Source: Nitrospirillum viridazoti CBAmc (GTDB lineage Bacteria; Pseudomonadota; Alphaproteobacteria; Azospirillales; Azospirillaceae). From it: a stretch of 64,000 nucleotides of DNA. Under the pieces are notes generated by a model. That model ran no database searches. It saw nothing but the letters and a program-made list of their open reading frames with translations, and had not been told where the DNA came from. A program made the translations under genes and the position numbers. The DNA lies in the NCBI RefSeq assembly GCF_000730165.1, contig NZ_CP022112.1:186001-250000 (forward strand), given 5' to 3'. Below, in pieces: positions 5,246 to 51,196 of the stretch. Position 1 is the stretch's first letter. Each line of letters opens with the position of its first letter.

Positions 5246-6130
5246 ATGAAGGGCATCATCCTCGCGGGCGGCTCCGGCACCCGGTTGCACCCCCTGACCA
5301 AGAGTGTCAGCAAGCAGTTGCTGCCCATCTATGACAAGCCGATGGTCTATTACCCGCTGTCGGTCCTGATGCTGGCCGGCATCCGCGACATCCTGCTGAT
5401 CAGCACGCCGCACCATCTGCCCCTGTTCCAGGATTTGCTGGGCGACGGCGCGCCCTGGGGCATCAGCCTGTCCTACGCCGAGCAGGCGGCGCCAAACGGC
5501 CTGGCGGAGGCCTTCATCATCGGCCGGGACTTCATTGGCAACGACCCCTGCGCCCTGGTGCTGGGCGATAACATCTTCTACGGCCAGGGTTTGAGCGCCC
5601 AGGCCCAGAAGGCCGCCTCGGTGAAGGATGGCGCCACCGTCTTTGCCTATTGGGTTGAGGATCCGCACCGCTATGGCGTGGTGGAATTCGACGAGCGGGG
5701 CCGCGCCATCAGCATCGTGGAAAAGCCGAAGGAGCCCAGGTCCAACTGGGCGGTGACCGGCCTGTACTTCTACGACAATCGGGTGGTGGACGTCGCCCGT
5801 GAGATCAAGCCCTCGCCCCGTGGCGAGTTGGAGATCACCGACGTCAACAACGTCTATCTGCAGCAAGGCAACCTGCTGGTGGAACGCCTGGGCCGCGGCA
5901 CCGCCTGGCTGGACACGGGCACCCACGATTCGCTGCTGGAGGCGGCGGAATTCGTGCGCACCATCGAGCATCGCCAGGGACTGAAGATCGGCTGCCCCGA
6001 GGAAATCGCCCTCGAACTCGGCTTCGTGGATGAAGAGGCCGTGCTGTCCCAGGCCCGGGCCTACAAGAACAGCCCCTACGGCCAGTACCTGCAGCGCCTG
6101 GTCAGCCGTCGCCGCGCGTCGCAGTATTAA
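5246..6130 (+). CDS. rfbA: glucose-1-phosphate thymidylyltransferase
   Basis: First enzyme of the dTDP-rhamnose pathway; joins dTTP and glucose-1-phosphate. It has 294 residues, the normal length. The nucleotidyltransferase signature [11 protein letters not shown] followed by [11 protein letters not shown] is at residues 8-31, and GDNIFYG, EKPKEP and TGLYFYD further on are typical of RmlA. It begins 58 bp after rfbD and is the last gene of the cluster. rfbC (3,5-epimerase) is not in the window, so the pathway must be completed elsewhere. Confidence 0.96.
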
Positions 6131-6194
6131 GGCTCCCTCGATGAGCAGGGTGCCGGCTGACCCCCGGCGCCCCTTTTCTGCGTCCCTCTTCCAG

Positions 6195-6281
6195 GCTCGC
6201 GACCGCGAGCCCCGCAGCGAGCACCGTAGGGCTGAGCGAGGATAGCCGAGGCCGCGGATGCGGCCGCTGGCGCCTGAAGCA
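6195..6281. repeat. structured repeat, copy A (partner at 18670-18764)
   Basis: Imperfect dispersed element in the convergent gap between rfbA and the luxR-type gene. Stem 1 is GCTCGC-GACC-GCGAGC (6195-6210). A possible middle stem pairs AGCCC (6208-6212) with GGGCT (6229-6233). The conserved block GAGGATAGCC follows at 6238-6247. Stem 3 is GGCCGC-GGAT-GCGGCC (6250-6265), followed by GCTGGCGCCTGAAGCA (6266-6281). The second copy keeps the GACC and GGAT loops and both blocks but has different, compensating stem bases. It ends 3 nt before the stop codon of the minus-strand gene. Confidence 0.8.
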
Positions 6282-6284
6282 CAC

Positions 6285-7073
6285 TTAAGGATAAATCAGG
6301 CCCATCTGAATGGCCTTGGCCACAGCGTGGATCTTGGAGTAGCAGCCCAGCTTTTCCAGCGCATTCTGCAGGTGGAAGGTCACGGTACGGCCGGAGACGC
6401 CGATGATCTCGCCCGTTTCCTCCACCGTCTTGCCCCGGCTGGCCCACACCAGGGCTTCCTGTTCACGCTGGGTCAGTGTCGGCGGCGGGGTGACGGGTGT
6501 CAGGCGCATGCTGACCACCCGTTCATGGAAATAAAGGGCGCTGAGGCGCAGCCACGCCGGCGCGGAATCCGGGCTGATCAGCCCCTCCGGCTTTTGCGTC
6601 CAGAACAGGCTGACCACCGCCGAGGCCAAGCGGCCCTGCGGGTCGACCGTGTGGGTCGGAATGACATAGCCCTGGGTGTAGCCGTGATCGGCGGCCGAGG
6701 TCATGACGGCGATGGCACGCTGAGCGTCCTGCTTGGCCCGGCCGCGCGCCGGCATATCCAGCTTGGAGGGCGCTTGCAGGCTGGCATGGAACTCCGGCAC
6801 GTCGGCCCAGGTCAGGGGGGCGGCCTGCCGTTTCGCCATCACCATCAGCGGGTCATGGCTCATATACCCTTCGGACAGGTAGGTGTGGAGAAAATCCTCC
6901 CGCACCGTCGTGCGCACGAAAAGGTCCGGTTCGCCCGGCGCCGGGCCTGGGCGGCTGTCGATGTAGCTGACGGCGGCGTAGCCGAGGTCCTGCGCTAACT
7001 GACTGAATGTATTAAATAAATCCTCAGGATTGTCAGGCTGGCCCAACCGGTTCAGGGCTTCGTCCAGGATCAT
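6285..7073 (-). CDS. LuxR-family regulator with autoinducer-binding domain (probable LuxR solo)
   Basis: A 262-residue transcription factor. The N-terminal part (to about 170) is an autoinducer-binding domain: GYMSHDP supplies the Asp-Pro pair that binds acyl-homoserine lactone in TraR/LasR, and PLTWADV supplies the later Trp. The Tyr seven residues before GYMSHDP's Pro region matches TraR Tyr61, but the position matching Trp57 is Phe (EDFLHTY). The C-terminal LuxR HTH is at about 195-255 (LTQREQEAL, GKTVEETGEIIGVSGRTVTF). No luxI-type synthase is in the window, so it may be a solo sensing foreign or non-AHL ligands. A lux-box-like palindrome lies 78 bp upstream. Confidence 0.9.
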   Translation of the reverse strand: MILDEALNRLGQPDNPEDLFNTFSQLAQDLGYAAVSYIDSRPGPAPGEPDLFVRTTVREDFLHTYLSEGYMSHDPLMVMAKRQAAPLTWADVPEFHASLQAPSKLDMPARGRAKQDAQRAIAVMTSAADHGYTQGYVIPTHTVDPQGRLASAVVSLFWTQKPEGLISPDSAPAWLRLSALYFHERVVSMRLTPVTPPPTLTQREQEALVWASRGKTVEETGEIIGVSGRTVTFHLQNALEKLGCYSKIHAVAKAIQMGLIYP

Positions 7074-7150
7074 GGGAGAGCGTCCAAGGGCCCCGGGAGG
7101 GGCGCGCGATTGATGGGTTGGGGCACCTCTTTCGCGTCAAAAGCGCCTAA

Positions 7151-7170
7151 CCCTGTATGAGTCTACAGTT
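7151..7170. promoter_or_regulatory. lux-box-like inverted repeat
   Basis: CTGTA (7153-7157), a 6-nt spacer, and TACAG (7164-7168) form a perfect dyad with the spacing of the classical lux box; CCCTGTA and TACAGTT each differ at one base from ACCTGTA/TACAGGT. A second dyad, ATGTA-AC-TACAT, follows at 7171-7182. The site lies between the luxR-type gene and the divergent ribbon-helix-helix gene and could control either. Confidence 0.6.
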
Positions 7171-7268
7171 ATGTAACTACATTTCCCCCGCTTTGATAAG
7201 GACCGCCATCACACCCCCGGATAATGCGCTCCGGTAGCGCTTCCGGATCCTTATCTCGGAGCACGGAC

Positions 7269-7616
7269 ATGACCGTACTGACCAGCCATCGCCTTCCGTT
7301 TCCGGTTCTGGCCGCCGTGCATCAGGCGACGGCGCCGCGGTCCCTGGTGCCGCGCAGCGTCCGCGTGGGCAGCCGCCGCACCTCCATGCGGCTGGAGCCG
7401 CAGTTCTGGACCGGCCTGGACCTGCTGGCCCGCCAGGAAGGCTGCCAGATCGCCGAGTTGCTGGACGTGATCGACCGCTCGCGTGATGACGAGACCAGCC
7501 TGTCCAGCGCCGTGCGCGTGGTCGTGGTCAGCTACTTCCAGTGGCTGGCGTCGGTGGAGACCTTGGCGACCCCCGTGCAGGCGCCGCAGCAGAACCTGAG
7601 CCAGGCGTTCTTCTGA
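7269..7616 (+). CDS. ribbon-helix-helix domain protein
   Basis: A 115-residue protein. After about 35 variable residues it has RSVRVGSRRTSMRLEPQFW, a basic beta strand followed by two helices (LDLLARQEG, IAELLDVIDRSR) and SSAVRVVVVSYFQ. This is the layout of the alphaproteobacterial RHH_4-type family, small DNA-binding or protein-binding domains. I start at ATG 7269, with CGGAG upstream; an upstream in-frame ATG at 7224 lacks a ribosome site. It is divergent from the LuxR regulator across a 195-bp gap that contains the lux-box-like site, so it is a plausible quorum-type target. Its role is unknown. Confidence 0.8.
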   Translation: MTVLTSHRLPFPVLAAVHQATAPRSLVPRSVRVGSRRTSMRLEPQFWTGLDLLARQEGCQIAELLDVIDRSRDDETSLSSAVRVVVVSYFQWLASVETLATPVQAPQQNLSQAFF

Positions 7617-7772
7617 TCGACGCTTCCCGCGCCGTTCGTTGATGTCAGGTCATCGGGGCCCAATGGGCGCCCCCAATGGGGCCCCCGCTTCATGGCATAT
7701 TAGTGATCCAAGTCAAGGCAAGGCGCACCGGGAACGGTTATCTGGGAAAACCTTTTCCGGGAGATTGGCCCC

Positions 7773-9269
7773 ATGCCTGCCGCATCGCTTGCCTCTGCTG
7801 CAAATCTAACGCCCTTGGACCGTGTTCGCCGCACCACCACGCTGTTGGTGCTGACGTTGCTGGTGGCGCAGATCTTCGTTCTTCTGGCTGCCCAACTGGT
7901 GGTTCTGGGCGGGTTCGACTGGCGCCAACCGGCGGCGACGCTGCTGGTCGTGCTGGTGGCGGCGGGCGCCTGGGCAACCCTACCGCCGCCGGCCAGCCGC
8001 CTGGTGCTGGCCGCCTGCCTGCCTCTGGCCGGCGCCCTGTCCATTTGGGCCTTCGCCGGCAACCCGTGGCAGACGGGCATGCAGGTCTATGTCTACATCC
8101 TGGTCGCCGTGTCCGCCGGCTTTTGCGACGGGCGCACGCTGGCGGCATCCGCGGCGGCCGTGGCGATGTTCTTCATCGTCGGCGGGCTGGCGGTTCCGGA
8201 GTCGGCGGGCGTCCGCGGTGGGGAATATCTGCGCATCCTGATGTACGTCTGGCTGGTGGTGTTCGAGGGTGCCCTGCTGGCCTGGTTGGCCCAGACCATG
8301 GCCCGGTCCTTCCAGCGGTCGGACGAGGCCCTGGCCGATGCCCGCCAGGCGCATGAGGAGCTGGCCCAGGCGACATCCGCGCGCGAGGCCATGGCCGCTC
8401 AGGCGCGGGACGAACGCAACCGCCTGATGCTGGCCCTGGCGCGGCGCCTGGAAAGCGACGTCGGCGGCCTGGCGGGCGAGGTGGCGGGGGCGGCCACCGA
8501 CGCCCGCGGCTGTGCCGATGATCTGCGCGCCCTGGTGCGCCGCGGGTCGGACAACGCCGGCGCCATCGCCGCTTCGGGCGGGGACGCGCTGGACAGCGCT
8601 TCGCAGGTGGCGGACGCGGCCTCGCAACTGTCTGAGGCCATCGCCGAGATCAGCAGCCAGGTCGCCCGCTCCTCCGGCGTGACGCGCGAGGCGGCGGAGC
8701 GGGCGCGCTCCGCCCAGGCCATCATCAATGGCTTGTCGGAAGCGGCCTCCAGCATCGGCAGCGTGCTGGCCACCATCAGCGAGATTGCGGAACGCACCAA
8801 CCTGCTGGCGCTGAACGCCACCATCGAGGCGGCGCGCGCCGGCGTGGCGGGCAAGGGCTTTGCCGTCGTGGCGTCGGAAGTGAAGAACCTGGCCGGCCAG
8901 ACCGGCCTGGCGACGTCGGAAGTGGCGCAGAAGGTGGCCGCCATCCGCGACAGCACACAAGAAGCGGCTGACGCCATCGAATCCATCGCCACCGTCATCT
9001 TCGACGTGGACGCCGCCACGTCCGCCATTGCGGCGGCGGTGGAGGAACAGGACGCCGCCACCAAGGAGATCGCCCGCAGCGCCGCCGAGGCGGTGCAGAG
9101 CGCCGGCGCCGCCGCGCGGGGGTGTGAGGAGACGTTGTCGGCCTGGACCGACACCAACGGCTCCGCCGACGGCATTGCCGATCTGTCCAAGCTGCTGTCC
9201 GGCCGGGTGGAAAAGCTGCAGACCGTGGTCGATGGCGTGGTCGCCGAGATTCGTACCGACGCGGCCTGA
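7773..9269 (+). CDS. chemoreceptor with multi-TM sensor and no HAMP
   Basis: 498 residues. The first 175 are hydrophobic, with about six predicted membrane helices (the first at about 22-48, the last at about 148-170) and very short loops, so the sensor is likely membrane-buried. After a short coiled coil (residues 175-220) the MCP signalling domain follows, with [17 protein letters not shown] as the tip. I see no HAMP domain. The ATG at 7773 has CGGGAG upstream. The 3' end faces the TRAP operon, with a hairpin between. Receptors of this type are sometimes energy or membrane-state sensors, but nothing here proves the stimulus. Confidence 0.9.
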
Positions 9270-9296
9270 CACGGGGGCCAAAGCCAGGAAAAGACG

Positions 9297-9326
9297 AAGG
9301 AGGCGGCCCCGGCGGGACCGCCCCTT
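9297..9326. terminator. hairpin between convergent chemoreceptor and dctM genes
   Basis: AAGG-GGCGG (9297-9306, one bulged A) pairs with CCGCC-CCTT (9318-9326). It lies in the 73-bp convergent gap. No long T-tract follows, so it is a likely but not textbook terminator. Confidence 0.5.
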
Positions 9327-9342
9327 CCTGTTGGCGGCTAAT

Positions 9343-10689
9343 TCAGCCGGCGTAGACGGCGGTCGGCAGCCAGGTGGCGAGGCCCGGCACCAGGCACAGC
9401 GCCAGGATGGACACCAGCATCAGGCCCACGAAGGGCAGCACCCCCATCACCACGTCGCGCAGGGGGATGTCTGGCGCGATGTTTTTGATGACGAAGATAT
9501 TCAGGCCCACCGGCGGGTGGATCAGGCCCATCTCCATAACAATGGACATGATGATGCCGAACCAGATCAGGTCGAACCCGGCGGCCTTCAGCGGCGGCAG
9601 GATGACGGGCGCCGTCATCAGGATGATACTGACCGGCGGCAGGAAAAAGCCCAGCACCACCACCAGCACCAGGATGGCGGTCAGCAGCACCCATTTCGAC
9701 AGCTGCATGCCCACGATCCACTCCGCCGCGCCCTGGCTGATGTGCAGGTAGCTCATCACGTAGGAATACAGCAGCGACATGCCGATGATCATCATCAGCA
9801 TGGTGGACTCCCGCAGGGTGGACATCAGGATGGGGCCCACCTGCGCCGGTCGCCAGATACGGTAGATGCCGGCCACCATCACCAAGGCCAGGACGGCGCC
9901 CAGGCCCGCCGTCTCCGACGGGGTGGCGATGCCGCCGTACAGCGCGAACATCACGCCGATCAGCAGGATGACGAAGGGCAGCACGCGCGGAATGGCGGCG
10001 AAGCGTTCGCGCGCTGTGAAGGTGTCGGTGCGCAGAAGTTCTGACCACGTCCCGCCTTGGGCGTAGGCCGCCGTAGCCGCCGCCTTTTCCTGGCGATAGC
10101 GCGCCACGGCGTAGATCGCGAACAGCACCACCATCAGCACCCCCGGCCCGATTCCGGCCAGGAACAGGCGGCCCAGCGACTGCTCCGCCGCGACGGCATA
10201 GAGGATCAGGGTGATGGAGGGCGGCAGCAGGATGCCCAGGGTGCCGCCGGCGGCGATGATGCCGGCGGCGAAGCCGGGGGAATAGCCGCGGCGGCGCATC
10301 TCTGGGATACCGGCACTACCGATGGCGGAACAGGTGGCGGGGCTGCTGCCGGCCATGGCGGCAAACAGGGCGCAGGCGAAGACGTTGGCCACGCCCAGGC
10401 CGCCCGGCACCCGGCCCATCCATACATGCAGGGCGGAATAAAGGTCGGAACCGGCGCGTGACCGGCCGATGGCCGCGCCCTTCAGGATGAACAGGGGGAT
10501 GGTCAGCATGGTGATGCTGGCCATTTCCTCATAAACATTCTGGGTGACGGTATCCAGCGAGGCCGCCGGCATGAAGAAGTACATGAACACCACGGCGACG
10601 GCGCCCAGCGCGAAGGCGATGGGCAGGCCGGCGAACAGGGCCACCAGGGTGGCGCCACCGTAGAGCAGGCCGATCTCAACCGTGCCCAT
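9343..10689 (-). CDS. dctM: TRAP transporter large permease (probably malonate)
   Basis: The 448-residue, about 12-helix channel subunit of a Na+-driven TRAP uptake system. It begins MGTVEIGLLYGG and carries the DctM-typical SPATCSAIGSAGIPEM and GGTLGILLPPSI stretches, the re-entrant substrate/Na+ region. I start at ATG 10689, which has AAGGA 8 nt upstream; a start at 10713 would overlap dctQ by 38 bp without a better site. It is the third gene of dctP-dctQ-dctM, overlapping dctQ by 14 bp. The malonate assignment comes from the divergent mat genes. Confidence 0.93.
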   Translation of the reverse strand: MGTVEIGLLYGGATLVALFAGLPIAFALGAVAVVFMYFFMPAASLDTVTQNVYEEMASITMLTIPLFILKGAAIGRSRAGSDLYSALHVWMGRVPGGLGVANVFACALFAAMAGSSPATCSAIGSAGIPEMRRRGYSPGFAAGIIAAGGTLGILLPPSITLILYAVAAEQSLGRLFLAGIGPGVLMVVLFAIYAVARYRQEKAAATAAYAQGGTWSELLRTDTFTARERFAAIPRVLPFVILLIGVMFALYGGIATPSETAGLGAVLALVMVAGIYRIWRPAQVGPILMSTLRESTMLMMIIGMSLLYSYVMSYLHISQGAAEWIVGMQLSKWVLLTAILVLVVVLGFFLPPVSIILMTAPVILPPLKAAGFDLIWFGIIMSIVMEMGLIHPPVGLNIFVIKNIAPDIPLRDVVMGVLPFVGLMLVSILALCLVPGLATWLPTAVYAG

Positions 10690-11257
10690 GGGCGCGTCCT
10701 TCCATAGGGTCATCCCCCGCCTGGGGTGCTAGCAGTTGCAGGGCGATCTGCAGGGTCAGCAGGGTCATACCCGCCGACATGGCGAGGTAGGGGATCCACA
10801 GGGGCGGCGCCCAGGAGGAGAAGGTGGCGTATCCTTCCACCCAGGCCTCATGGCACAACACCCAGGACTTCCAGGAGAAGAAGCCGCAGAACAGCAAGGA
10901 GATCAGATCCGCCACCCGGCGGCGCACGCGCTCCACGCCTGTGGGCAGCAGCCCGCCCACCGCCTCGATGGCGACATGACCACGGCGGGATTGGACGTAG
11001 GCCGCGGACAGGAAGGTGGCGCCGACCAGCAGGAAAATGGCGGTCTCATCCTGCCAGTCGGACGACTGATGCAGGAAGTACCGGGCCAAGGCCTCTTCGG
11101 TCATGACGATGCCGGCGGCCACCACCGCCACCGCCGCGACGGTGGCGATGATGCGGTTGGTCCAGGCCAAGGCCATGCCCGCCCAGCGGATGGGCGCCGA
11201 CGCTCCCCGGGGCAGGCGCGCAGCCCCTGGCCCCTTGTCAAGCCCGGCAGCCCTCAT
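10676..11257 (-). CDS. dctQ: TRAP transporter small permease
   Basis: The 193-residue, four-helix DctQ partner of the large permease. After a short basic N-terminus come helices near residues 27-47, 66-84, 105-125 and 155-178, with DWQDETAIFLLVGATFL and RRGHVAIEA in the expected places. The ATG at 11257 overlaps the TGA of dctP (ATGA), the usual translational coupling; the longer frame upstream lies inside dctP. DctQ proteins stabilise the DctM channel in the inner membrane. Confidence 0.92.
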   Translation of the reverse strand: MRAAGLDKGPGAARLPRGASAPIRWAGMALAWTNRIIATVAAVAVVAAGIVMTEEALARYFLHQSSDWQDETAIFLLVGATFLSAAYVQSRRGHVAIEAVGGLLPTGVERVRRRVADLISLLFCGFFSWKSWVLCHEAWVEGYATFSSWAPPLWIPYLAMSAGMTLLTLQIALQLLAPQAGDDPMEGRAHGHG

Positions 11258-12330
11258 GCCACGTCCTCGGCCAGCTTCAGCAGGGCCGCGGCCTCGGCGG
11301 AACGGTCGGCGAAATCCTTCCAGGCGGTGTCGCGGGCGATGGCGCGCCACTCGTCCATCACCTTGTCGTCCATGTCGACGACCTTCACGCCCGCCTTGGC
11401 ATAGATCTCAGCCACGCGCTGGTCGTCCTTCCTGGCTTCTTCCAGGCCGAAGGGCTCCAGCGACTCACCCACCGTCAGCAGGGCCTTCTGCTGGGCGGCG
11501 GGCAGGCCGTCGAACACGATCTTGGACATCATCAAGGGTTCCAGCATGTACCAGAAGCTCTTCTGCCGGGCGGCGGTCAGGCTCTTGCTCTGCTCTTCCA
11601 GCTTGAAGGAGATCAGGCTGGTGGAACTGGTCACGGCGGCGTCCAGGTTGCCGGTCTGCATGCCGGCATAGATCTCGTTGGACGGAATGGAGGAGACGGC
11701 GGCGCCGGCCGCCTTGAACATCATGTCCATCTCGCGCGACCCGCCCCGGATCTTGATGCCCTTCACGTCGGCGGGATGCAGCACCGGGGTGCCGCGCGCG
11801 GCCACGCCGCCCGCCTGCCACACCCAGGTCAGGATTTTCACGCCCTTGGCCTCCAGCGCCTTGGTCAGCGCCTCACCGATGGGCTTCTTCTTCCAGGCCA
11901 GGCCCTGTTCATAGCTGGTCACCAGGCAGGGCATCAGGCCCAGGTTCATCTCCGGAATCTCACCACCGCCATAAGGCATGGGGTAGAGGGTGAAGTCCAA
12001 GGCCCCCTTCCGCAGCGCCTGCAGCTGCGCCACTGTCTTCATGAGGGAGGAGGCGGGGTAGACCTCGAACTTCAAGGCGCCCTTGGTCTCCGCCTCCACC
12101 TGCGCCGCGAACTTGCGGCACAGCCGGTCGCGGAAGTCGCCCTCCGTCAGTGTGCCGCCGGGGAACTGGTGGGAGATCTTCAGGGTGGTCTGGGCCTGGG
12201 CCAGGCTGGGGAGCAAGCCGCCGGCGCTCAGCACCGTGCCGCCTAGGGTCAGGGCAACGGGGCTGGCCGCCATGCCCCCCAGCAGGGCGCGGCGCGACAA
12301 GGCGGTGTTGGGCGTCTGATCGGTCGACAT
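11254..12330 (-). CDS. dctP: TRAP transporter substrate-binding protein, Tat-type signal
   Basis: The 358-residue periplasmic binding protein of the TRAP system. The N-terminus has SRRALLGG followed by a hydrophobic stretch and AQA, a twin-arginine-type signal. The mature part begins TTLKISHQFPGG, and RGGSREMDMMFKAAGA includes the conserved Arg that salt-bridges a carboxylate ligand in DctP proteins. The start is ATG 12330 with GAGGA upstream; 53 further in-frame codons upstream have no signal-peptide character. It is the first gene of dctPQM, divergent from the GntR regulator. The ligand is inferred to be malonate from the neighbours. Confidence 0.92.
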   Translation of the reverse strand: MSTDQTPNTALSRRALLGGMAASPVALTLGGTVLSAGGLLPSLAQAQTTLKISHQFPGGTLTEGDFRDRLCRKFAAQVEAETKGALKFEVYPASSLMKTVAQLQALRKGALDFTLYPMPYGGGEIPEMNLGLMPCLVTSYEQGLAWKKKPIGEALTKALEAKGVKILTWVWQAGGVAARGTPVLHPADVKGIKIRGGSREMDMMFKAAGAAVSSIPSNEIYAGMQTGNLDAAVTSSTSLISFKLEEQSKSLTAARQKSFWYMLEPLMMSKIVFDGLPAAQQKALLTVGESLEPFGLEEARKDDQRVAEIYAKAGVKVVDMDDKVMDEWRAIARDTAWKDFADRSAEAAALLKLAEDVA

Positions 12331-12718
12331 AGGGGCGTGTTCCTCACCGTGGGCAAGCGCCGGTCTTCTTCTGGTCCGGCGTTGGGGTTGGGCCTGAAGC
12401 GTCGGTTCTGACAAGGAAACGGGTAAAGGCGGGGCCGGGTGTGGCGGCCCGCTCAAGCACTTGGGCGCCAACTCCAGCGCGCTGATCATCCTGGCTTCCG
12501 CAATTGCTCAGTAAATGCTGCAATGGCGAAATATGTCTTTATTTGCAGATGCTTGGGTGATGGAAGCATGTCAGAGCGGCTCGGGGGCGTCAATCTCTGA
12601 AACGCAAGATTGTGCGTCTTGCATGCATGAAGAGGACTGGTGTATGCGTAAAATCAGGCAAGGGGATGTGGGCCGCCGGCCGCCGATAACGCCTGCCCCG
12701 CCCCGGATGAGGTGACCC
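12331..12718. promoter_or_regulatory. divergent control region dctP / matR
   Basis: A 388-bp gap carrying the promoters for the TRAP operon and the mat genes. Two dyads stand out: ATGCTT-N9-AAGCAT (12549-12569), and TCTT-N9-AAGA around a TGCATGCA palindrome (12617-12633). GntR/FCD regulators bind short dyads of this size, so both are candidate MatR operators; the choice between them is open. Confidence 0.45.
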
Positions 12719-13438
12719 ATGGCCCTTCCCGAAACCCGTTCCGAGCAATTGGCCCGTGCGTTGGAGGACGATATCTGCGCCGGCCGCGCCCTGCCGGGCA
12801 TGCGGCTGGACGAACAGGTTCTGGCCCAACGTTTCGGCACGTCGCGCACCCCGGTGCGGGAGGCGTTGAAGATGCTGGCGGCCCAGGGCTTCGTGGAAAT
12901 CCGCCCGCGCCAGGGCGCCGTGGTGGTCGGCCTGGATGTGCGCCAGGTGCTGGAGCTGTTCGAGATCATGGCCGTGCTGGAAGGCCTGTGCGCCCGCCTG
13001 GCCGCCCGCCGCATGACGCCGGCGGAACGGGCGGATCTGATGGCCGTCCACGCCGAATGCCAGCGCCTGGCGGCGGCCGGCGACCCCGACGTTTACTACG
13101 CCATGAACACCCGCTTTCATGAGGTGATCTACGCCGGCAGCCACAACCGCCAGCTGGAGGAAGAGACGCGGCGGGTGCGCAACCGACTGTCCCCCTATCG
13201 CCGCAACCAGTTGCACCAGCTGGGGCGTGTCGCGAAGTCGGTGCAGGAGCATGACGACGTGGTGCGCGCCCTGCTGGAGGGCGATCCCGATCGGGCGGAA
13301 AGCCTGATGCGCCGCCACATCGGCATCCAGGGCGACGGCCTGTCCGACTTCGTGTCCAACATGTCGACACCGCAGGCCGTGTCCAACCCACCGCCGGCCT
13401 TGGCGGGCACGCTCGGCCGGCCTACCATTGTGCAGTGA
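12719..13438 (+). CDS. matR: GntR-family regulator, FCD subfamily (probable MatR)
   Basis: 239 residues. The N-terminal winged helix (residues 8-72) has LDEQVLAQRFGTSRTPVREAL, the GntR signature. The C-terminal helical FCD domain holds the metal/ligand residues, with Asp/His in YYAMNTRFHEVIY and SVQEHDDVVRAL followed by RRHI. Members of this family sense small carboxylates. It lies directly before malonyl-CoA decarboxylase and synthetase and divergent from a TRAP operon, the matR arrangement known from rhizobia, so it probably represses malonate genes until malonate or malonyl-CoA appears. The gene name rests on context. Confidence 0.85.
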   Translation: MALPETRSEQLARALEDDICAGRALPGMRLDEQVLAQRFGTSRTPVREALKMLAAQGFVEIRPRQGAVVVGLDVRQVLELFEIMAVLEGLCARLAARRMTPAERADLMAVHAECQRLAAAGDPDVYYAMNTRFHEVIYAGSHNRQLEEETRRVRNRLSPYRRNQLHQLGRVAKSVQEHDDVVRALLEGDPDRAESLMRRHIGIQGDGLSDFVSNMSTPQAVSNPPPALAGTLGRPTIVQ

Positions 13439-13516
13439 CCGTTCGCCGCCATCTCAATCTGCGTCCGTCCACTCTGGTTTGCCCATTCCGGTTTGCAAGG
13501 CCACGAGGTCCAGCCC

Positions 13517-15010
13517 ATGAGCAGCAGCACCTTCTTCCGGTCCATGTTGACGACCATCGCCGATCGCGGCCGCGCCCTGGTGCGCCGTCACGGTCCCATG
13601 GTGGAGGATTTGCTGGAGGACGCGGCCAAGCTGATGCCGCTGTCCGCCAAGGGGCAGCCCAAGCGCGACCTGCCCACCCTATGCGACACCCTGCTGTCCG
13701 GCCGGGGCGAGGCCTCGGGCGTGGCGCTGGCCGGGCAGATCCTGGACCAGTGGGCGCGGCTTGACACCACAGGCCAGCGGGCCTTCCTGCTGGATCTGGC
13801 GTATCGTTTCGGTCCCGACCCAATCAAGCTGGACAAAGCCATTGACGCCTATCGCGCGGCGCCGGGCGCCGGGACGGCGCTGGCCCTGCACAACGCGGCC
13901 GAGGCGCGGCGGCAGGAACTGTTCCGCCGCCTGAACCTGGCCCCCGGCGGGACCGAGGCGGTGGTGCGCATGCGCGAAGCCCTGTTCCGGGTGATGGCCG
14001 ACGCGCAGGGGGTGGAAAAGCAGGCGCTGGAGGCGGTGGACGCGGACTTCAGCCATCTGCTGGCCAGCTGGTTCAACCGCGGTTTCCTGGTGCTGCGCCA
14101 CATCGATTGGACGACCCCGGCCAATATTCTGGAAAAGATCATCCGGTATGAGGCGGTGCACACCATCCGAGATTGGGACGATCTGCGCCGCCGCCTGGCG
14201 CCGGCCGACCGCCGCTGCTTCGCCTTCTTTCATCCCCAGCTGCCCGACGACCCGCTGATCTTCGTGGAGGTCGCGCTGGCGCCGGACATCCCGGCCAGCA
14301 TCGATGCCCTGCTGGCGGAGGGCCGTGCGCCCATGGCGGAGGAAGACGCGACCACCGCCGTATTCTATTCCATCTCCAACTGCCAGGAGGGGCTGCGCGG
14401 CGTTTCCTTCGGCAACTTCCTGATCAAGCAGGTGGTGGAGGATTTGCGGGGAGAACTGCCCAACCTGCGCACCTTCGTCACGCTGTCGCCCGTGCCGGCC
14501 TTCGCCAAGTGGCTGGCGCGGGAACGTGGGGACGAGGCGTCCGCCGTGCTGGCGGCGGCGGACAAGGCCATCCTGGCGGCGCTGGACCAGCCGGACTGGC
14601 AGCGCGATCCGGGCACCGCGGCCACCGTGTCGCCCGTGCTGCTGCAGGCGGCGGCGCACTATTTCCTGAAGGCCAAGTCCCGTGGCAACAAGCCGGTGGA
14701 CCCGGTCGCCCGCTTCCACCTGGGCAATGGTGCCCGGCTGGAACGCCTGAACTTCCTGGGCGATTTGTCGCCCAAGGGCCTGAGCCAATCGCATGGCCTG
14801 ATGGTCAATTACCTCTATAAGCTGGACGACATCGAAACCAACCATGAGCGCTACGCCGACAAGGGCGAGGTGGTGGCCGCGGCGGCCGTCCGCCGTCACC
14901 TGAAGGCCGAGAGCGGCACGGACGAACCCAAGCCGCCCAAGCCTGGCAAGGCTGGGGCGCCCAAGCGCGCCCGCCCCGCCAGCGATGCCGCCCAGCCGCC
15001 TGTTGTTTAG
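13517..15010 (+). CDS. matA: malonyl-CoA decarboxylase
   Basis: Converts malonyl-CoA to acetyl-CoA and CO2 in the cytoplasm. 497 residues from ATG 13517 (GAGG about 9 nt upstream). The N-terminal helical half is followed by a GNAT-like catalytic half. GVSFGNFLIKQVVEDLRGEL and TLSPVPAFAKWL (catalytic Ser region) and DPVARFHLGNGA (catalytic His) match the MCD family closely. The C-terminus is a Lys/Pro-rich tail with no obvious function. It is followed 47 bp later by matB, so MatB makes malonyl-CoA and MatA consumes it. Confidence 0.95.
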   Translation: MSSSTFFRSMLTTIADRGRALVRRHGPMVEDLLEDAAKLMPLSAKGQPKRDLPTLCDTLLSGRGEASGVALAGQILDQWARLDTTGQRAFLLDLAYRFGPDPIKLDKAIDAYRAAPGAGTALALHNAAEARRQELFRRLNLAPGGTEAVVRMREALFRVMADAQGVEKQALEAVDADFSHLLASWFNRGFLVLRHIDWTTPANILEKIIRYEAVHTIRDWDDLRRRLAPADRRCFAFFHPQLPDDPLIFVEVALAPDIPASIDALLAEGRAPMAEEDATTAVFYSISNCQEGLRGVSFGNFLIKQVVEDLRGELPNLRTFVTLSPVPAFAKWLARERGDEASAVLAAADKAILAALDQPDWQRDPGTAATVSPVLLQAAAHYFLKAKSRGNKPVDPVARFHLGNGARLERLNFLGDLSPKGLSQSHGLMVNYLYKLDDIETNHERYADKGEVVAAAAVRRHLKAESGTDEPKPPKPGKAGAPKRARPASDAAQPPVV

Positions 15011-15057
15011 GTCTCAATAATAACAACGCCCCAAGAAGACGCCGGAGTGTGACCGCC

Positions 15058-16599
15058 ATGGCCAACCATCTCTTTTCCCTGATCCTGAGCCGCATGCCGG
15101 CCCTGGAGACGCCGTTCATCATCATTCCGGAAACCAAGGGCCAGCCCGAGCGGACACTGACCTACGGCGAGATGACGGCGCTGTCGGCGCGCATGGCCAA
15201 CCTGCTGGTGGCCCGGGGGGTGAAGCCGGGCGACCGTGTGGCGGTGCAGGTGGAGAAGAGCGCCGAGGCCATCATGCTCTATCTCGCCTGCGTGCGGGCG
15301 GGCGCCATCTACCTGCCGCTGAACACCGGTTACACCCTGGCGGAACTGGACTATTTCATCGGCGACGCCACGCCCCACCTGGTGGTGTGCGATCCCGCCA
15401 AGGCGGGCCCCATGACGGAACTGGCCCGCGCCAAGGGCGTGGCCGCCGTGGAAACGCTGGGGGGCCAGGGGGCGGCCGATGCCGGCACCCTGCTGGCGGC
15501 GGCGCTGGCGCAGTCCAGCACCTTCGCGGACATCGACCGTGGCGCCGACGACCTGGCCGCCATCCTCTACACCTCAGGCACCACCGGCCGGTCCAAGGGC
15601 GCCATGCTCAGCCATGACAACCTGGCTTCCAACGCCTTGACCCTGGTGGACTATTGGCGGTTCACGGGTCGCGACGTGCTGCTGCACGCCCTGCCCATCT
15701 TCCACACCCATGGCCTGTTCGTGGCCACCAACACCCTGCTGCTGGCCGGCGGCACGATGATCTTCCTCGCCAGGTTCGATGCCGACGAGGTCATGCGCCA
15801 GCTGCCGCGCGCCACCACCATGATGGGTGTGCCCACCTTCTACGTCCGCCTGCTGCAGCATCCGGGCCTGACCAAGGAGGCGACGGCCCACATGCGGCTG
15901 TTCATCTCCGGCTCGGCGCCACTGCTGGCCGAAACCCATGACAGCTGGCGGGCCCGCACCGGTCTGGCGATCCTGGAACGGTACGGCATGACCGAAACCA
16001 ACATGAACACCTCCAACCCCTATGACGGCGACCGGGTGGCTGGCACCGTGGGCTTCCCCCTGCCGGGCGTGGCCCTGCGCGTGGTGGATCCGGAGACGGG
16101 CGCCGCCATCCCGCAGGGGGAGATCGGCATGATCGAGGTGCGCGGCCCCAACGTCTTCAAAGGCTATTGGCAGATGCCGGAGAAGACGGCGGCCGAATTC
16201 CGCCCCGACGGCTTCTTCATCACCGGCGACCTGGGCAAGATCGACGCCCGGGGCTATGTCCACATCGTCGGCCGGGGCAAGGACCTGGTCATCTCCGGCG
16301 GCTACAACGTCTATCCCAAGGAGATCGAGACGGAGATCGACGGCCTGCCCGGCGTGGTGGAAAGCGCCGTCATCGGCGTGCCGCATCCGGACTTCGGTGA
16401 AGGGGTGACGGCCGTGGTGGTGCGTCAGAAAGGGGCGGCTGTGGATGAGGCCGCCGTGCTGGCCGCTCTGGACGGCCGCCTGGCCAAGTTCAAGCAGCCC
16501 AAGCGCGTGCTGTTCGTGGACGACCTGCCGCGCAACACCATGGGCAAGGTGCAGAAGAACCTGCTGCGCCAGGAATACCAGGGGCTTTACAGGAAATAG
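15058..16599 (+). CDS. matB: malonyl-CoA synthetase (malonate-CoA ligase)
   Basis: An adenylate-forming acyl-CoA synthetase of 513 residues. Motifs in order: YTSGTTGRSKGAMLSH (P-loop), ERYGMTETNMNT (A5), ITGDLG and KDLVISGGYNVYPKEIE (hinge), and RNTMGKVQKNLLR with the C-terminal catalytic Lys. GMTETNM together with the mat neighbours favours malonate over other acids. The start is ATG 15058 with CGGAG 11 nt upstream; a GTG at 15049 lies too close to that site. It is the last gene of matRAB, followed by a strong terminator. Confidence 0.95.
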   Translation: MANHLFSLILSRMPALETPFIIIPETKGQPERTLTYGEMTALSARMANLLVARGVKPGDRVAVQVEKSAEAIMLYLACVRAGAIYLPLNTGYTLAELDYFIGDATPHLVVCDPAKAGPMTELARAKGVAAVETLGGQGAADAGTLLAAALAQSSTFADIDRGADDLAAILYTSGTTGRSKGAMLSHDNLASNALTLVDYWRFTGRDVLLHALPIFHTHGLFVATNTLLLAGGTMIFLARFDADEVMRQLPRATTMMGVPTFYVRLLQHPGLTKEATAHMRLFISGSAPLLAETHDSWRARTGLAILERYGMTETNMNTSNPYDGDRVAGTVGFPLPGVALRVVDPETGAAIPQGEIGMIEVRGPNVFKGYWQMPEKTAAEFRPDGFFITGDLGKIDARGYVHIVGRGKDLVISGGYNVYPKEIETEIDGLPGVVESAVIGVPHPDFGEGVTAVVVRQKGAAVDEAAVLAALDGRLAKFKQPKRVLFVDDLPRNTMGKVQKNLLRQEYQGLYRK

Positions 16600-16634
16600 C
16601 CCCTCGTCCGTCGCGCGTTGAAATCGGCATAAAA

Positions 16635-16666
16635 AAAGACCGGATGGGACAGCCCACCCGGTCTTT
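16635..16666. terminator. bidirectional rho-independent terminator after matB
   Basis: AAAGACCGG (16635-16643) pairs with CCGGTCTTT (16658-16666), with an inner TGGG/CCCA pair and a 4-nt loop. A seven-A run precedes it and TTT closes it, so it can serve matB on the plus strand and the DUF465 gene on the minus strand. Confidence 0.85.
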
Positions 16667-16734
16667 CACTTTCAGGACCCCGGCACCCGGTTCGGGTGGA
16701 CGGCGGCCCCACATGGCCAGTGGCCCGCGACGGA

Positions 16735-16902
16735 TCAGTGCCGCGTGTGTTCGTCGATCTTCTCTTTCAGCCTGAGCTTTTCGAATTTCATGCGCTGCAC
16801 GAGGGCGCTGTCATGATAGGGGCGTGCCAGTTCGCTGTGGATACGGTCTTCCAGACTGGCATGCTTCTGGCGCAGGCTTTCGACGAAATTGTCAGTGGCC
16901 AT
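16735..16902 (-). CDS. DUF465 (YdcH-like) small protein
   Basis: A 55-residue gene read directly from the sequence. The protein starts MATDNFVESLRQKHASLEDR and ends FEKLRLKEKIDEHTRH. It is a single charged helical hairpin with the H-x-x-L-E-x-x-I and L-K-x-K-L/R-x-L-K-E/D-x-I pattern typical of the DUF465/YdcH family, which often lies near envelope or cell-division genes and has no established biochemical role. GGAGG lies 6 nt before the ATG. It is convergent with matB. Confidence 0.88.
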   Translation of the reverse strand: MATDNFVESLRQKHASLEDRIHSELARPYHDSALVQRMKFEKLRLKEKIDEHTRH

Positions 16903-17247
16903 AGTTCCCTCCAGCTATCTGTTCAAGGGATAAAGGCGAGATCGCCTTGAGTGCCTTAGACGATGGTCCGGTTCTGGCAGTAGTTCCATCCCGTTTGCCG
17001 CCAGCGCAACAAGATCGGCGCCAGCGTATATTTTCTTTTATTGACGCATCCGTCATCAGGCGACAATCGGCGCCTTGAGGCGGTCATGCCGCGTTTCAAA
17101 AGCTTACGCCCCTCATAGGCCGAAGTCTTCAACAAAATAGGATAGTGCTAGACGAAGGGCAGGGGCGCGTTAAGCCTTTATCCAGCCGCCTATGACAACG
17201 TCGTGACAGCCATATGACACCCGGAAGTCGCCTGTTTTCAAGGCTTC
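16903..17247. other. intergenic region upstream of the MFS gene
   Basis: About 345 bp of lower-GC sequence between the DUF465 gene and the MFS promoter. I see no supported coding frame or RNA gene in it. The DUF465 promoter should lie at its left end. Confidence 0.5.
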
Positions 17248-17275
17248 TTGAAATATGGGTAATTGCCCGTATTAT
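17248..17275 (+). promoter_or_regulatory. sigma-70-like promoter of MFS gene
   Basis: TTGAAA (17248-17253), a 16-nt spacer, and TATTAT (17270-17275). Expected transcription start is near 17282, about 31 nt before the ATG at 17313. The spacer contains a near-dyad GGGTAATTGCCC that could be an operator. Confidence 0.55.
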
Positions 17276-17312
17276 AGGAGCCACCCTGTACCCCGATCGG
17301 ATAAGCGCCGCC

Positions 17313-18641
17313 ATGACCGACGTGACCGCCCCCAAAAATTCCTTTGGCTCCGCGCCATCGTTGGCCCGGCACCTGGCCCGGCAGGTGAACGGGCGCATGC
17401 ATTACGGGTGGGTGGCGGCGGCCCTCGCCTTCGCCACCCTGTTGGTGGGCGCGGGGGTGCGGGCGGCCCCGGGCGTGCTGTTCGTGCCCCTGGAACAGGC
17501 GCTGGGCTGGGACCGCGCCACCATTGCGGCGGCGGTGTCGCTGAACATCTTCCTCTATGGCTTCATGGGCCCGTTCGCAGCTGCCCTGATGCAGGCTGTC
17601 GGCGTCCGGCGCACGATCCTGACAGGCCTGGGCCTGCTGGCGGTGACGACCATCACCAGTACCCTGATGACCCGGCCCTGGCAGATGATGCTGTCCTGGG
17701 GCCTGCTGGTGGGCCTGGGCACGGGCCTCACCTCCATGACCCTGGCGGCCACGGTGGTGAACCGCTGGTTCATCAAGCAGCGCGGCCTGGTCATGGGCCT
17801 GCTGACCGCCAGTTCGGCCACGGGGCAGCTGGTGTTCCTGCCCGGCATGGCCGCCTTGGCCACCCATTTCGGCTGGCAGGCGGTGGGTCTGACGGTGGGG
17901 GCGGCTGCCCTCGCGCTGGTGCCGCTGGTGGGCCTGCTGCTGCCCGACAGCCCCCGCGCCGTGGGCCTGGCGCCCCTGGGCGGGACGCTGGAGGATGAAC
18001 TGCCGCAGTCGAGCGGCAACCCCATCGTCATCGCCTTCACCACGCTGGGCCGGGCGTCGAAGTCGGTGGATTTCTGGCTGTTGTTCGGCAGCTTCTTCGT
18101 TTGCGGCCTATCGACCAACGGCCTGATCGGCACGCACCTCATCTCCGCCTGTTTCGACCAGGGCATCCCCGAAGTGGCGGCCGCCAGCCTGCTGGCCCTG
18201 ATGGGCCTGTTCGATCTGGTGGGCACCACCGGGTCCGGTTGGCTGTCCGACCGGGTCGATAGCCGCAAGCTGCTGTTCTGGTATTACGGCCTGCGCGGCC
18301 TGTCCTTGTTCTACCTGCCCCTGTCGGGCTTCAGCCTCTACGGCCTCTCTATCTTCGCCGCGTTCTACGGCTTGGACTGGATCGCCACCGTGCCGCCCAC
18401 CGTACGCCTGGTCACCGACCGCTTCGGCCGTCGCGACGCGCCCGTGGTCTTCGGCTGGGTGGGGGCGGGCCATCAGATGGGCGCGGCCCTGGCGGCCTAT
18501 GGCACCGGCATCATCCGCACCGAATGGGGCAGCTACTTCCCGGCGTTCCAGGTCGCGGGCCTGGCCTGCGTGTTGACCGCGATCATGGTGCTGTTCATCA
18601 ACCGCCGCCGTAACACCGCGACGCTGGCCCCGGCCGAGTGA
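17313..18641 (+). CDS. MFS transporter, oxalate/formate-antiporter-like
   Basis: A 442-residue carrier with about 12 membrane helices in two halves joined by a cytoplasmic loop near residues 200-230. HYGWVAAALAF at the first helix, GAGVRAAPGVLFVPLEQALGW and VNRWFIKQRGLVMGLLTA are typical of the monocarboxylate/oxalate-formate branch. WLSDRVDSRKLLF is the repeat of the MFS cytoplasmic motif in the second half. The substrate is unknown, probably a small organic anion. The start at ATG 17313 fits the promoter. The 3' end faces the ABC permease and is followed by repeat copy B. Confidence 0.85.
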   Translation: MTDVTAPKNSFGSAPSLARHLARQVNGRMHYGWVAAALAFATLLVGAGVRAAPGVLFVPLEQALGWDRATIAAAVSLNIFLYGFMGPFAAALMQAVGVRRTILTGLGLLAVTTITSTLMTRPWQMMLSWGLLVGLGTGLTSMTLAATVVNRWFIKQRGLVMGLLTASSATGQLVFLPGMAALATHFGWQAVGLTVGAAALALVPLVGLLLPDSPRAVGLAPLGGTLEDELPQSSGNPIVIAFTTLGRASKSVDFWLLFGSFFVCGLSTNGLIGTHLISACFDQGIPEVAAASLLALMGLFDLVGTTGSGWLSDRVDSRKLLFWYYGLRGLSLFYLPLSGFSLYGLSIFAAFYGLDWIATVPPTVRLVTDRFGRRDAPVVFGWVGAGHQMGAALAAYGTGIIRTEWGSYFPAFQVAGLACVLTAIMVLFINRRRNTATLAPAE

Positions 18642-18669
18642 ATAAGTTCAGCGGCGGAAAGTGACCTTA

Positions 18670-18764
18670 GGACGCGACCGCGTCCGCCGGAAGTTTCCGG
18701 GGAGCGCAGCGGACTGGAAACTGAGGATAGCCAAGGGGCGGATGCCCCGCTGGCGCCTGAAGCA
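18670..18764. repeat. structured repeat, copy B (partner at 6195-6281)
   Basis: Convergent gap between the MFS gene and the ABC permease. Stem 1 is GGACGC-GACC-GCGTCC (18670-18685). The middle stem pairs AGTTTCC (18692-18698) with GGAAACT (18716-18722). The block GAGGATAGCC (18723-18732) follows. Stem 3 is GGGGC-GGAT-GCCCC (18735-18748), then GCTGGCGCCTGAAGCA (18749-18764). Loops and blocks equal copy A; stems 1 and 3 each differ by two compensated base pairs. GTCCGC (18682-18687) can also pair with GCGGAC (18709-18714), which would compete with stem 1 or form a pseudoknot with the middle stem. It ends 2 nt before the stop codon of the minus-strand gene. Confidence 0.8.
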
Positions 18765-18766
18765 AC

Positions 18767-20266
18767 TTATAACGGCGCCCGCAGGATGGCCACCAGGCCC
18801 AGCAGGCCGCCCGCCACCAGCAGGGCGAAGGGGTTGTGGTGCAGCATCAGGACGGTGGTGCCCATCCAGCCGTAGCTCATCATCATTTCCAGCAGGGTGC
18901 GGCCCACCAGCTTGCCGCCGGCGCCCTTGCGCGGCTTCAGCACCTGGTCCACCTCGCTTCCGCTGACCGGTTGCACCCACAGGCTGGCCACCACGGCGCA
19001 GAAGGTGGCGGCGATGCCGCAGCTGAGGATGGTCAGCGTGCCCCACAGGCTGACGCCGCCGGCCAGTGCTGCCACCAGGGCCACCGCCGCCAAGGGCGGC
19101 AGGCCGGCCGCCTCCACCTTGGCCTGGCGCAGGCGCTTGGGCGTGACCGGGGCGGCGTTGATCAGGTCGGCGGCCCCGTCGGCCAGGGCCAGCTTGGCCA
19201 GGGTGCCGGCCGTCAGCGCGGCCAAGGGCACCACCAGGGCGGCCAGGGTCAACGGGTCGGTCCGCCACTGGTCCTGCATGGAAATGACCAGGATGATGGC
19301 GCCGCTCATCTGCTGGAACAGCAGCAGGGGCAGTTGCGGGTGGCGGCGCATCAGCCGCCATTCCTTGCGGCGCAGCAGGGGGCCCAGGCGGTCCTGGAAC
19401 TGGTGGGCCTTGGTCGGCGCCTTGGTTGCGGCTGTCGTGGCGCCGGCCGCGGCGGAGGCGGTGGCGATGAAAGTGGGACCCCAGCGCGCGGTCACACCGG
19501 CGAAGATGCTGACGCAAGCGATGACCAGGACGGCCAGGGATAGCGGGTCGCCCAGCAGCGCGTGGCCGGGCAGCAGCACGAAGGCCGCCAGCGGCCCGTG
19601 CCTCAGCCCGTCGGCGCGCGCCATCCAGTCGATATGTGGGCCCAGCAGCCGGGGGATCTGCCCCGCCAGGCCCATGAGCATGCCGGTGAAGGCGGCGATG
19701 CCCTGGCCCACGACGCGGGCGCGCCGCACCCCTACCCAGCGCACCAGCAGCAGCGCCACCAACAGGGCGACGCCCGTCACGGCCAGGGCCAGGGCGGGCA
19801 GGGCCACGTAGGCGGCCAGCCAGTTGGGATGGCCGAAGATGGCGCCCATGTTGGCGATGGGCAGGATCAGGGCAGCGGGAAACAGCAGGGTCCCGGCCAT
19901 CACCGCCAGGGCACGGGCCGGCAGGATGACGGCGGGCGACAAGGGGGATGACAGCAGCAGGTCGTAGTCCCCCCGGGCATAGATCGTGTCCATGGCGCGG
20001 TAGATGGCCGTGCCCATCATGAAGCAGCAGGCCAGCGCCGCCACCATGGCGCCGATTGCCGGCTGCATGTCGGTCGCCCCCCGGCTGGCCCCCCCTTGTG
20101 CGGCGCCTATGGCCATGAAGGCGCCCAGGACGTGGAACAGGATCACCATGGCCAGCAGGGTGATCCAGACGCCGGGGGATGACAGTTTGATGGCCCGCGC
20201 GGCCAGGCGCAGCTCATGCCGCAGCAGCCAGGCCAAGGTCCCCGGGCGCAGGGTAGCGGCGATCAT
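18767..20266 (-). CDS. ABC transporter permease (ABC-2-like)
   Basis: 499 residues with about 10-12 hydrophobic helices. The N-terminal TLAWLLRHELRLAARAI amphipathic helix precedes the first membrane span, and a basic cytoplasmic segment near residue 285 (DRLGPLLRRKEWRLMRRHPQ) splits the two halves. This is the layout of large export-type permeases whose ATPase is encoded separately. It overlaps the ATPase gene by 4 bp (ATGA), so the two form one transporter. The substrate is unknown. Its stop codon abuts repeat copy B. Confidence 0.82.
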   Translation of the reverse strand: MIAATLRPGTLAWLLRHELRLAARAIKLSSPGVWITLLAMVILFHVLGAFMAIGAAQGGASRGATDMQPAIGAMVAALACCFMMGTAIYRAMDTIYARGDYDLLLSSPLSPAVILPARALAVMAGTLLFPAALILPIANMGAIFGHPNWLAAYVALPALALAVTGVALLVALLLVRWVGVRRARVVGQGIAAFTGMLMGLAGQIPRLLGPHIDWMARADGLRHGPLAAFVLLPGHALLGDPLSLAVLVIACVSIFAGVTARWGPTFIATASAAAGATTAATKAPTKAHQFQDRLGPLLRRKEWRLMRRHPQLPLLLFQQMSGAIILVISMQDQWRTDPLTLAALVVPLAALTAGTLAKLALADGAADLINAAPVTPKRLRQAKVEAAGLPPLAAVALVAALAGGVSLWGTLTILSCGIAATFCAVVASLWVQPVSGSEVDQVLKPRKGAGGKLVGRTLLEMMMSYGWMGTTVLMLHHNPFALLVAGGLLGLVAILRAPL

Positions 20267-51116: not shown

Positions 51117-51130
51117 GGGCCGTGCTGAAG

Positions 51131-51154
51131 CCAAGGGGGGCTAGCCGCCCTTGG
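51131..51154. terminator. hairpin after S10 peptidase
   Basis: CCAAGGG (51131-51137) pairs with CCCTTGG (51148-51154) around an inner GGC-TA-GCC pair. It lies in the convergent gap. Confidence 0.6.
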
Positions 51155-51196
51155 CGGTCGGCGGCCGCCGGCGCTTGAGGAACACAAGAAGGAGCG

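Follow-up and report, generated by a model that had tools for sequence, protein, structure and literature searches.

The nearest known description for the element treated here is that of the Caulobacter CcrM-associated intergenic repeats (CIR; Chen and Shapiro 2003, via PMC2229807), with which it was compared by description. According to this source, CIR are alphaproteobacterial intergenic repeats of about 110 bp, consisting of hairpin arms and a linker. They carry GANTC at a terminal loop and TA at the ends, and their target duplication is listed as unknown. The DNA analyzed here is a stretch of 64,000 nt from Nitrospirillum viridazoti CBAmc (contig NZ_CP022112.1, positions 186,001 to 250,000), which is referred to as the window. 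It contains two copies, c1 and c2, of a structured repeat. No published description of this element was found in a literature search that left out most subscription journals, including the original CIR paper. We consider it quite probable that c1 and c2 are trimmed copies of a mobile, non-coding DNA element of about 144-161 bp, which inserts at TNA triplets and duplicates them. The computation supports the existence of the family, its ends, the target duplication, the placement at gene ends and the turnover of stems with pairing kept.

The two copies had been described in an earlier note, made from the letters of the window, as sharing identical loops and an identical 16-mer while having different, still-paired stems. 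This observation is confirmed, and its interpretation is partly supported. Exactly common to c1 and c2 are GAGGATAGCC, the GACC loop of hairpin H1, the GGAT loop of hairpin H3 and the 16-mer GCTGGCGCCTGAAGCA (6266-6281 in c1, 18749-18764 in c2). The stem bases differ in H1 (GGCTCGC/GCGAGCC vs GGACGC/GCGTCC) and in H3 (GGCCGC/GCGGCC vs GGGGC/GCCCC). The note also claimed a middle stem that pairs with different bases in the two copies. This applies to c2, where AGTTTCC/GGAAACT is clear, but not to c1, where the candidate (AGCCC/GGGCT) overlaps H1's own arm. Both copies lie in convergent gaps, as stated there, and end 3 nt (c1) and 2 nt (c2) from the stop codon of the minus-strand gene (6285-6287 and 18767-18769, respectively).

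In the genomes G092 and G125, and in some Nitrospirillum copies, the core seen in c1 and c2 has a palindrome (H0) on its 5' side and a hairpin (H4) on its 3' side, and the ends are TACC...GGTA or close variants. The parts are arranged in the order TACC, H0 palindrome, H1 (loop usually GACN), a variable middle, AGCCAAG-H3 (loop usually GGAT), the tail GNNTGAGG, H4 and GGTA. Copies bounded with matching triplets define a full-length size of about 144-161 bp. H0, H4 and both ends are missing from c1 and c2. A pattern search that itself includes the TACC/GGTA ends found both ends in 21 of 229 unique core copies. The flanking triplets match in 15 of these 21, being TTA, TAA, TGA or TCA (shuffle mean 4.1, maximum 11; the end pattern fixes the inner letter of each flanking triplet, and the shuffle keeps that letter too). 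Such matching TNA triplets indicate insertion with a 3-bp target duplication. An empty site is found in strain B4, where it reads CCAACTGA, while strain BR 11880 has TGA on each side of the insert; the sequence right of the insertion site differs somewhat between the two strains. Inverted ends together with a target duplication, as in miniature inverted-repeat transposable elements (MITEs), are a property of the copies with both ends and are not seen in the core-only copies. A reading frame with a good codon score terminates in frame at the triplet in 7 of the 15 copies with a match. A solitary H0-like palindrome with the ends TGCCAAG...CTTGGCA and no core was observed in G125 (contig C110, L402:4593-4640).

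The family is much larger than the window suggests. An exact-pattern search of the whole genome retrieved the core in c1 and c2 only, and on this basis a two-copy repeat was considered. That view was rejected as reflecting the limit of the pattern. Covariance model R1, which was built from 20 copies, has at least 146 matches in the Nitrospirillum genome at E <= 0.01 (a lower bound, with 150 of 13,840 candidates scored). The restriction to two copies, which the earlier note regarded as adverse to its reading, is thus not found. At E <= 0.001, the 64-kb window together with 800 kb of sequence from this genome gives 44 R1 matches: 36 in positions 1-400,000 of contig C1, none in its 1.0-1.1 Mb region, 5 in 200 kb of contig C2, 1 in 100 kb of contig C4 and 2 in the window. 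Among the listed copies on contig C1 of G000, 79 of 108 are in the outer half of the contig; no DnaA was found among five early open reading frames. Within the taxonomic family, R1 matches occur in 20 of 82 genomes (7/7 in the genus Nitrospirillum, 9/11 in genus g11 and 4/45 in genus g3). With a relative's copy as query, blastn retrieved 11-16 copies in each of 7 members of the genus, few candidates having been scored per genome. A second model, R2, represents 16 copies from the genera g11 and g3. It matches 29 of 385 sampled alphaproteobacterial genomes (23 of 277 genera) and 12 of 398 genomes of a phylum sample; all 12 are alphaproteobacterial, and the number of the 398 that are outside the class is not given. 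BLAST searches of plasmid and phage collections, with the low-complexity filter on, gave no match to the element.

Sites orthologous to those of c1 and c2 may be occupied or empty. At the c1 site, the element is present in strains G000, G059 and G061 (two in tandem). Strains G060, G062 and G063 lack it and have terminator-like hairpins instead (by eye), while G064 lacks the downstream match. At the c2 site, the element is present in G000, G059, G061 (two) and G064, G063 has a remnant, and G060 and G062 have none. The suggestion of a mobile structured repeat, one of several made in the earlier note, is supported by the high copy number, by presence and absence at orthologous sites, and by the full-length relatives, whose ends are defined and which show a 3-bp duplication of the target.

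Several further observations concern the copies as such. Tandem arrays with a period of about 103-120 bp occur (L004, L042, L050, L054, L330), and at one locus the number of copies varies between strains. In G092, several contigs start or stop inside the element (L319, L321, L322, L323, L328, L329). Near-identical copies seem to break the assembly there, so that a recent spread of the element in this genome is likely. One copy with H0 and H1 (L263, about 4006-4110; G000, contig C1 at about 304,006) is interrupted directly behind GCCAAG by an insertion-sequence-like stretch, possibly IS110-like.

The stems change while their pairing is kept. For the 20 copies, 99.4% of cells are paired and 6 pairs show double changes, values that no shuffle out of 500 attained; for the number of further pair types, 21 of the 500 did. 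It is this covariation, not the folding energy, that places the structure of c1 and c2 beyond chance (z is an unremarkable -0.90 for c1 and a moderate -2.54 for c2). The contrary evidence considered in the earlier note, broken stems without compensation, did not turn up: the stems are compensated. Related genera supplied 16 further copies, in which 95.6% of cells are paired, with double changes at 9 pairs and one-sided changes at none. A larger set of 219 unique copies was parsed, H1 being sought via a C-GACN-G loop and H3 being required to have at least 4 of 5 Watson-Crick pairs. H1 was found in 194 copies (loops GACC 109, GACT 67, GACG 17, GACA 1) and H3 in 175 (GGAT 158, GGAC 14, GCAT 3). 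H1 is perfect over 6 pairs in 163 of the 194, where 15 different perfect arms occur. If one side of H1 is shifted, pairing falls to 28-40%. The departures of H1 from Watson-Crick pairing comprise 14 G-T, 7 A-C and 31 others. The middle stem of subtype B is present in 51 of the 219 copies, with 29 kinds of arm pair that include a few mismatched ones. A compensated change is also seen at a single site: at the c2 site, the H3 outer stem GCC/GGC of G000 corresponds to GCT/AGC in G059. In most of 22 copies from distant genomes, AGCCAAG, an H3 loop of the GGA type and the GNNTGAGG tail are preserved while the stems differ.

The element is placed at gene ends, as judged from genes called with a simple codon-usage caller written for this analysis. 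Of 147 placed copies, 146 are intergenic: 63 are in convergent gaps, 79 in codirectional gaps (43 and 36 in the two orientations) and 4 in divergent gaps. This count excludes 7 copies at locus edges and every match in seven loci that belong to other organisms; orthologous copies in different strains are counted individually. In an unselected 400 kb, gaps of at least 60 bp are occupied in 10 of 39 cases when convergent, 17 of 139 when codirectional and 2 of 65 when divergent, and overlap with a called gene is seen for 2 of 36 copies. Convergent copies and facing codirectional copies number 99, and 82 of them have both a recognizable tail and a stop codon no more than 50 nt away. The distance from tail to stop is 1-14 nt in 55 of the 82; another 13, most of them with H4 retained, form a smaller cluster at 34-37 nt. 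Some of the other 43 codirectional copies are directly before a start codon. At six loci (L060, L081, L093, L128, L143, L185), a second short CCGGCGNNTGAGG-like tail was observed between the element and the gene edge.

This placement, downstream of genes and not in divergent gaps, could also be that of an RNA element under selection in 3' untranslated regions, for example an mRNA 3'-end stabilizer with fixed loops that bind a protein. Such a role would fit the compensated stems and the adjacency of tail and stop codon in many copies. An RNA selected on one strand is expected to tolerate G-T far more than A-C. Among 2,039 pairs of H1 and H3, 96.6% are Watson-Crick, 0.8% G-T and 0.6% A-C, while 12 tRNAs parsed from the same sequences (270 pairs) have 9.3% G-T and no A-C. 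Because G-T is about as rare as A-C, palindromes at the level of DNA are favored, although the comparison is weakened by the H3 pairing filter and the high G+C content. The RNA module proposed in the earlier note is thus not demonstrated, and we regard an RNA element as improbable: some copies directly precede start codons, the same site is empty in related strains, and the element occurs in both orientations between codirectional genes (43 and 36). Rfam, where the note had allowed for a known family, has no match for the element in the window and in two sets of loci; elsewhere in the loci, it returned a tRNA and two weak matches. The note had also named a terminator, and an intrinsic one that works in both directions would agree with the location in convergent gaps and with the terminator-like hairpins seen by eye in strains lacking c1. 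We give it hardly any credence, and a G+C-rich hairpin followed by a T-run was rejected as an explanation: among 160 copies, 1 has a T-run behind H3, and 7 have one behind H1 on the other strand. No terminator was found in the gap of c2, and the one in the gap of c1 is separate and sits outside the element. A different view is that stem complementarity is not selected at all, with hairpin-templated mutation or gene conversion between copies keeping the palindromes perfect. Whole stems do change at orthologous sites, with few intermediates. When copies whose flanks match were compared (65 comparisons, some of them across members of a tandem array), double changes in H1 and H3 outnumbered single ones by 57 to 26 (14 stem comparisons were impossible). 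We hold this view to be possible but unlikely, as most of the distant copies retain the H3 loop, AGCCAAG and the tail while their stems differ, which suggests selection or a function during movement.

Two known types of repeat have to be weighed as well. A CIR family member that serves as a methylation-linked regulatory site is a possible but rather doubtful identity. As described in PMC2229807, CIR share with the element the alphaproteobacterial and intergenic occurrence, the terminal TA and hairpin arms with a linker. GANTC is present in 24 of 70 H0 hairpins, touching the loop in 20, compared to 4 of 205 control windows further upstream. It is absent, however, from c1, c2 and 46 of the 70 H0 hairpins, and the reported length of about 110 bp differs from the 144-161 bp found here. 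A repetitive extragenic palindrome (REP) moved by a RAYT (Y1 tyrosine transposase) is very improbable. The earlier note had called the repeat REP-like, and this holds for its location and hairpin habit. The element occurs in convergent and codirectional gaps and in clusters in both orientations, and GTAG is near hairpins in some copies, where it precedes H1, but not in c1 or c2. What does not hold is the rest of the comparison: PF01797 was not found in 7 of 7 Nitrospirillum genomes and in 16 of 20 other carriers, with a model that matches 5 of 14 control genomes, and the remaining 4 of the 20 have a Y1_Tnp/RAYT gene. Matching target triplets (15 of 21) would not be expected from the RAYT mechanism. 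A strict RAYT-linked REP was rejected: the element has several hairpins over about 144-161 bp rather than a single one of 20-40 bp, and no Y1_Tnp gene was found in the genus.

We return to the proposed mobile element with TNA targets. Each of the triplets TAA, TGA, TTA and TCA reads as a stop codon on one of the two strands. Because this applies to every TNA triplet, an element that inserts at such a triplet at a gene end and duplicates it would restore the stop and leave the protein intact. An enzyme acting in trans may recognize the folded DNA, as a single strand or a cruciform, via loops and unpaired bases; since these would be what is read, the stems would be free to change as long as they remain paired. 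Cores such as c1 and c2 may be older copies with the outer parts deleted, and exchange between copies might help to maintain the complementarity of stems. We tentatively speculate that this is an alphaproteobacterial family of mobile folded DNA with a putative enzyme that reads loops rather than stems and targets stop-codon triplets, each insertion restoring the stop. This broader view is doubtful, and more so because the H1 loop is incompletely constant in distant copies.

Several results weigh against the proposed mobile element. Matching triplets occur in just 3 of 9 G125 copies with both ends (shuffle mean 0.76, maximum 3), all 9 of which are 144 bp long. Three of them belong to the set of 21 as well; the other six include 1 match. 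Among the 15 duplicated triplets, 8 lack a supported reading frame, the codon model having been trained on Nitrospirillum. Core-only copies, which are the bulk of those examined and include c1 and c2, show no duplication: 4-mers match in 82 of 173 compared to 80.3 after shuffling, and 5-mer flank matches are not above shuffling either. For 6-mers, 13 matches compare to 6.1 (maximum 14). The loops are not fixed throughout, as the H1 loop is GACN in just 15 of the 22 distant copies (by eye), the others having ATTGA or no clear H1. No mobilizing enzyme was found: Y1_Tnp is present in 0 of 7 Nitrospirillum genomes, and DDE_Tnp_1 is absent from G092 (77% complete) and G125; G000 has 20 matches to this IS5-type model. 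A look, rather than a full search, through solitary ends and solitary H3 tails listed for 400 kb of G000 and 751 kb of G125 revealed no obvious parent element.

With its ends, target triplet and recurring loops, this is a bounded and testable mobile element in a class where intergenic repeats are common and their movement is unexplained. The stop-codon target, if true, would let a selfish element inhabit dense genomes by simple means, without breaking genes. The turnover of stems with pairing kept represents a natural experiment on the recognition of folded DNA. The parts of c1 and c2 and their neighbors are listed in the table, together with a possible weak remnant.

Table. Positions in the window of c1, c2, their hairpins and the adjacent features
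Feature	Position	Strand	Remarks
c1, core-only element of subtype A, comprising H1, middle, H3 and tail	6194..6281	+	covariance model R1: 73.9 bits over 6191-6284
c1 hairpin H1: stem GGCTCGC/GCGAGCC, loop GACC	6194..6211	+	
c1 hairpin H3: outer GCC/GGC, inner GGCCGC/GCGGCC, loop GGAT	6245..6271	+	R1 match
c1 tail GCCTGAAGCA (family version GNNTGAGG)	6272..6281	+	minus-strand stop codon 3 nt further
c2, core-only element, subtype B (middle stem)	18666..18767	+	bounds by R1 (94.3 bits); 18670-18764 in the earlier note
c2 hairpin H1: GGACGC/GCGTCC, loop GACC	18670..18685	+	
c2 middle stem AGTTTCC/GGAAACT, subtype B	18692..18722	+	
c2 hairpin H3: outer GCC/GGC, inner GGGGC/GCCCC, loop GGAT	18730..18754	+	R1 match
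c1 neighbor: nucleotidyl transferase	5246..6130	+	PF00483
c1 neighbor: LuxR-type regulator	6285..7073	-	PF03472 and PF00196
c2 neighbor: MFS transporter	17313..18641	+	PF07690
c2 neighbor: possible ABC exporter	18767..20266	-	PF16962, below its curated cut-off
Intrinsic terminator-like hairpin between plus-strand gene and c1	6148..6172	+	outside the element
Possible degenerate remnant (H3 and tail) of the element family, located downstream of a gene	51129..51185	+	weak; R1 16.6 bits, E 0.072; second scan E 0.97

The IS1031 group of the IS5 family generates a 3-bp TNA duplication. This is the same target duplication as that of the element; DDE_Tnp_1, the sole Pfam model of this family that was searched, is absent from the carriers G092 and G125. 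GTAG REPs resemble the element in being palindromic and clustered and in their position beside gene 3' ends in convergent and codirectional gaps, but they are 20-40 bp palindromes tied to Y1 transposases, as described in PMC3733652. In the same source, CGTC REPs are mostly alphaproteobacterial, have no known dedicated transposase and are near gene 3' ends, like the element. Their stems of 8-9 bp (with A-T pairs almost always first), CGTC tag and CCA tail were, however, not seen in c1, c2 and the aligned copies. Bacterial MITEs such as RUP, ERIC and Correia share with the element a length of 100-200 bp, a non-coding nature, inverted ends and a target duplication, but differ in having longer inverted ends (7-24 bp) and TA termini; hairpins with fixed loops that are shared between bacterial families, and a TNA target, are not described for them in the passages of PMC2229807 that were read. 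Compared to CIR, as described there, the element is distinguished by its four or five hairpins, its TNA duplication and its at least 146 copies in one genome.

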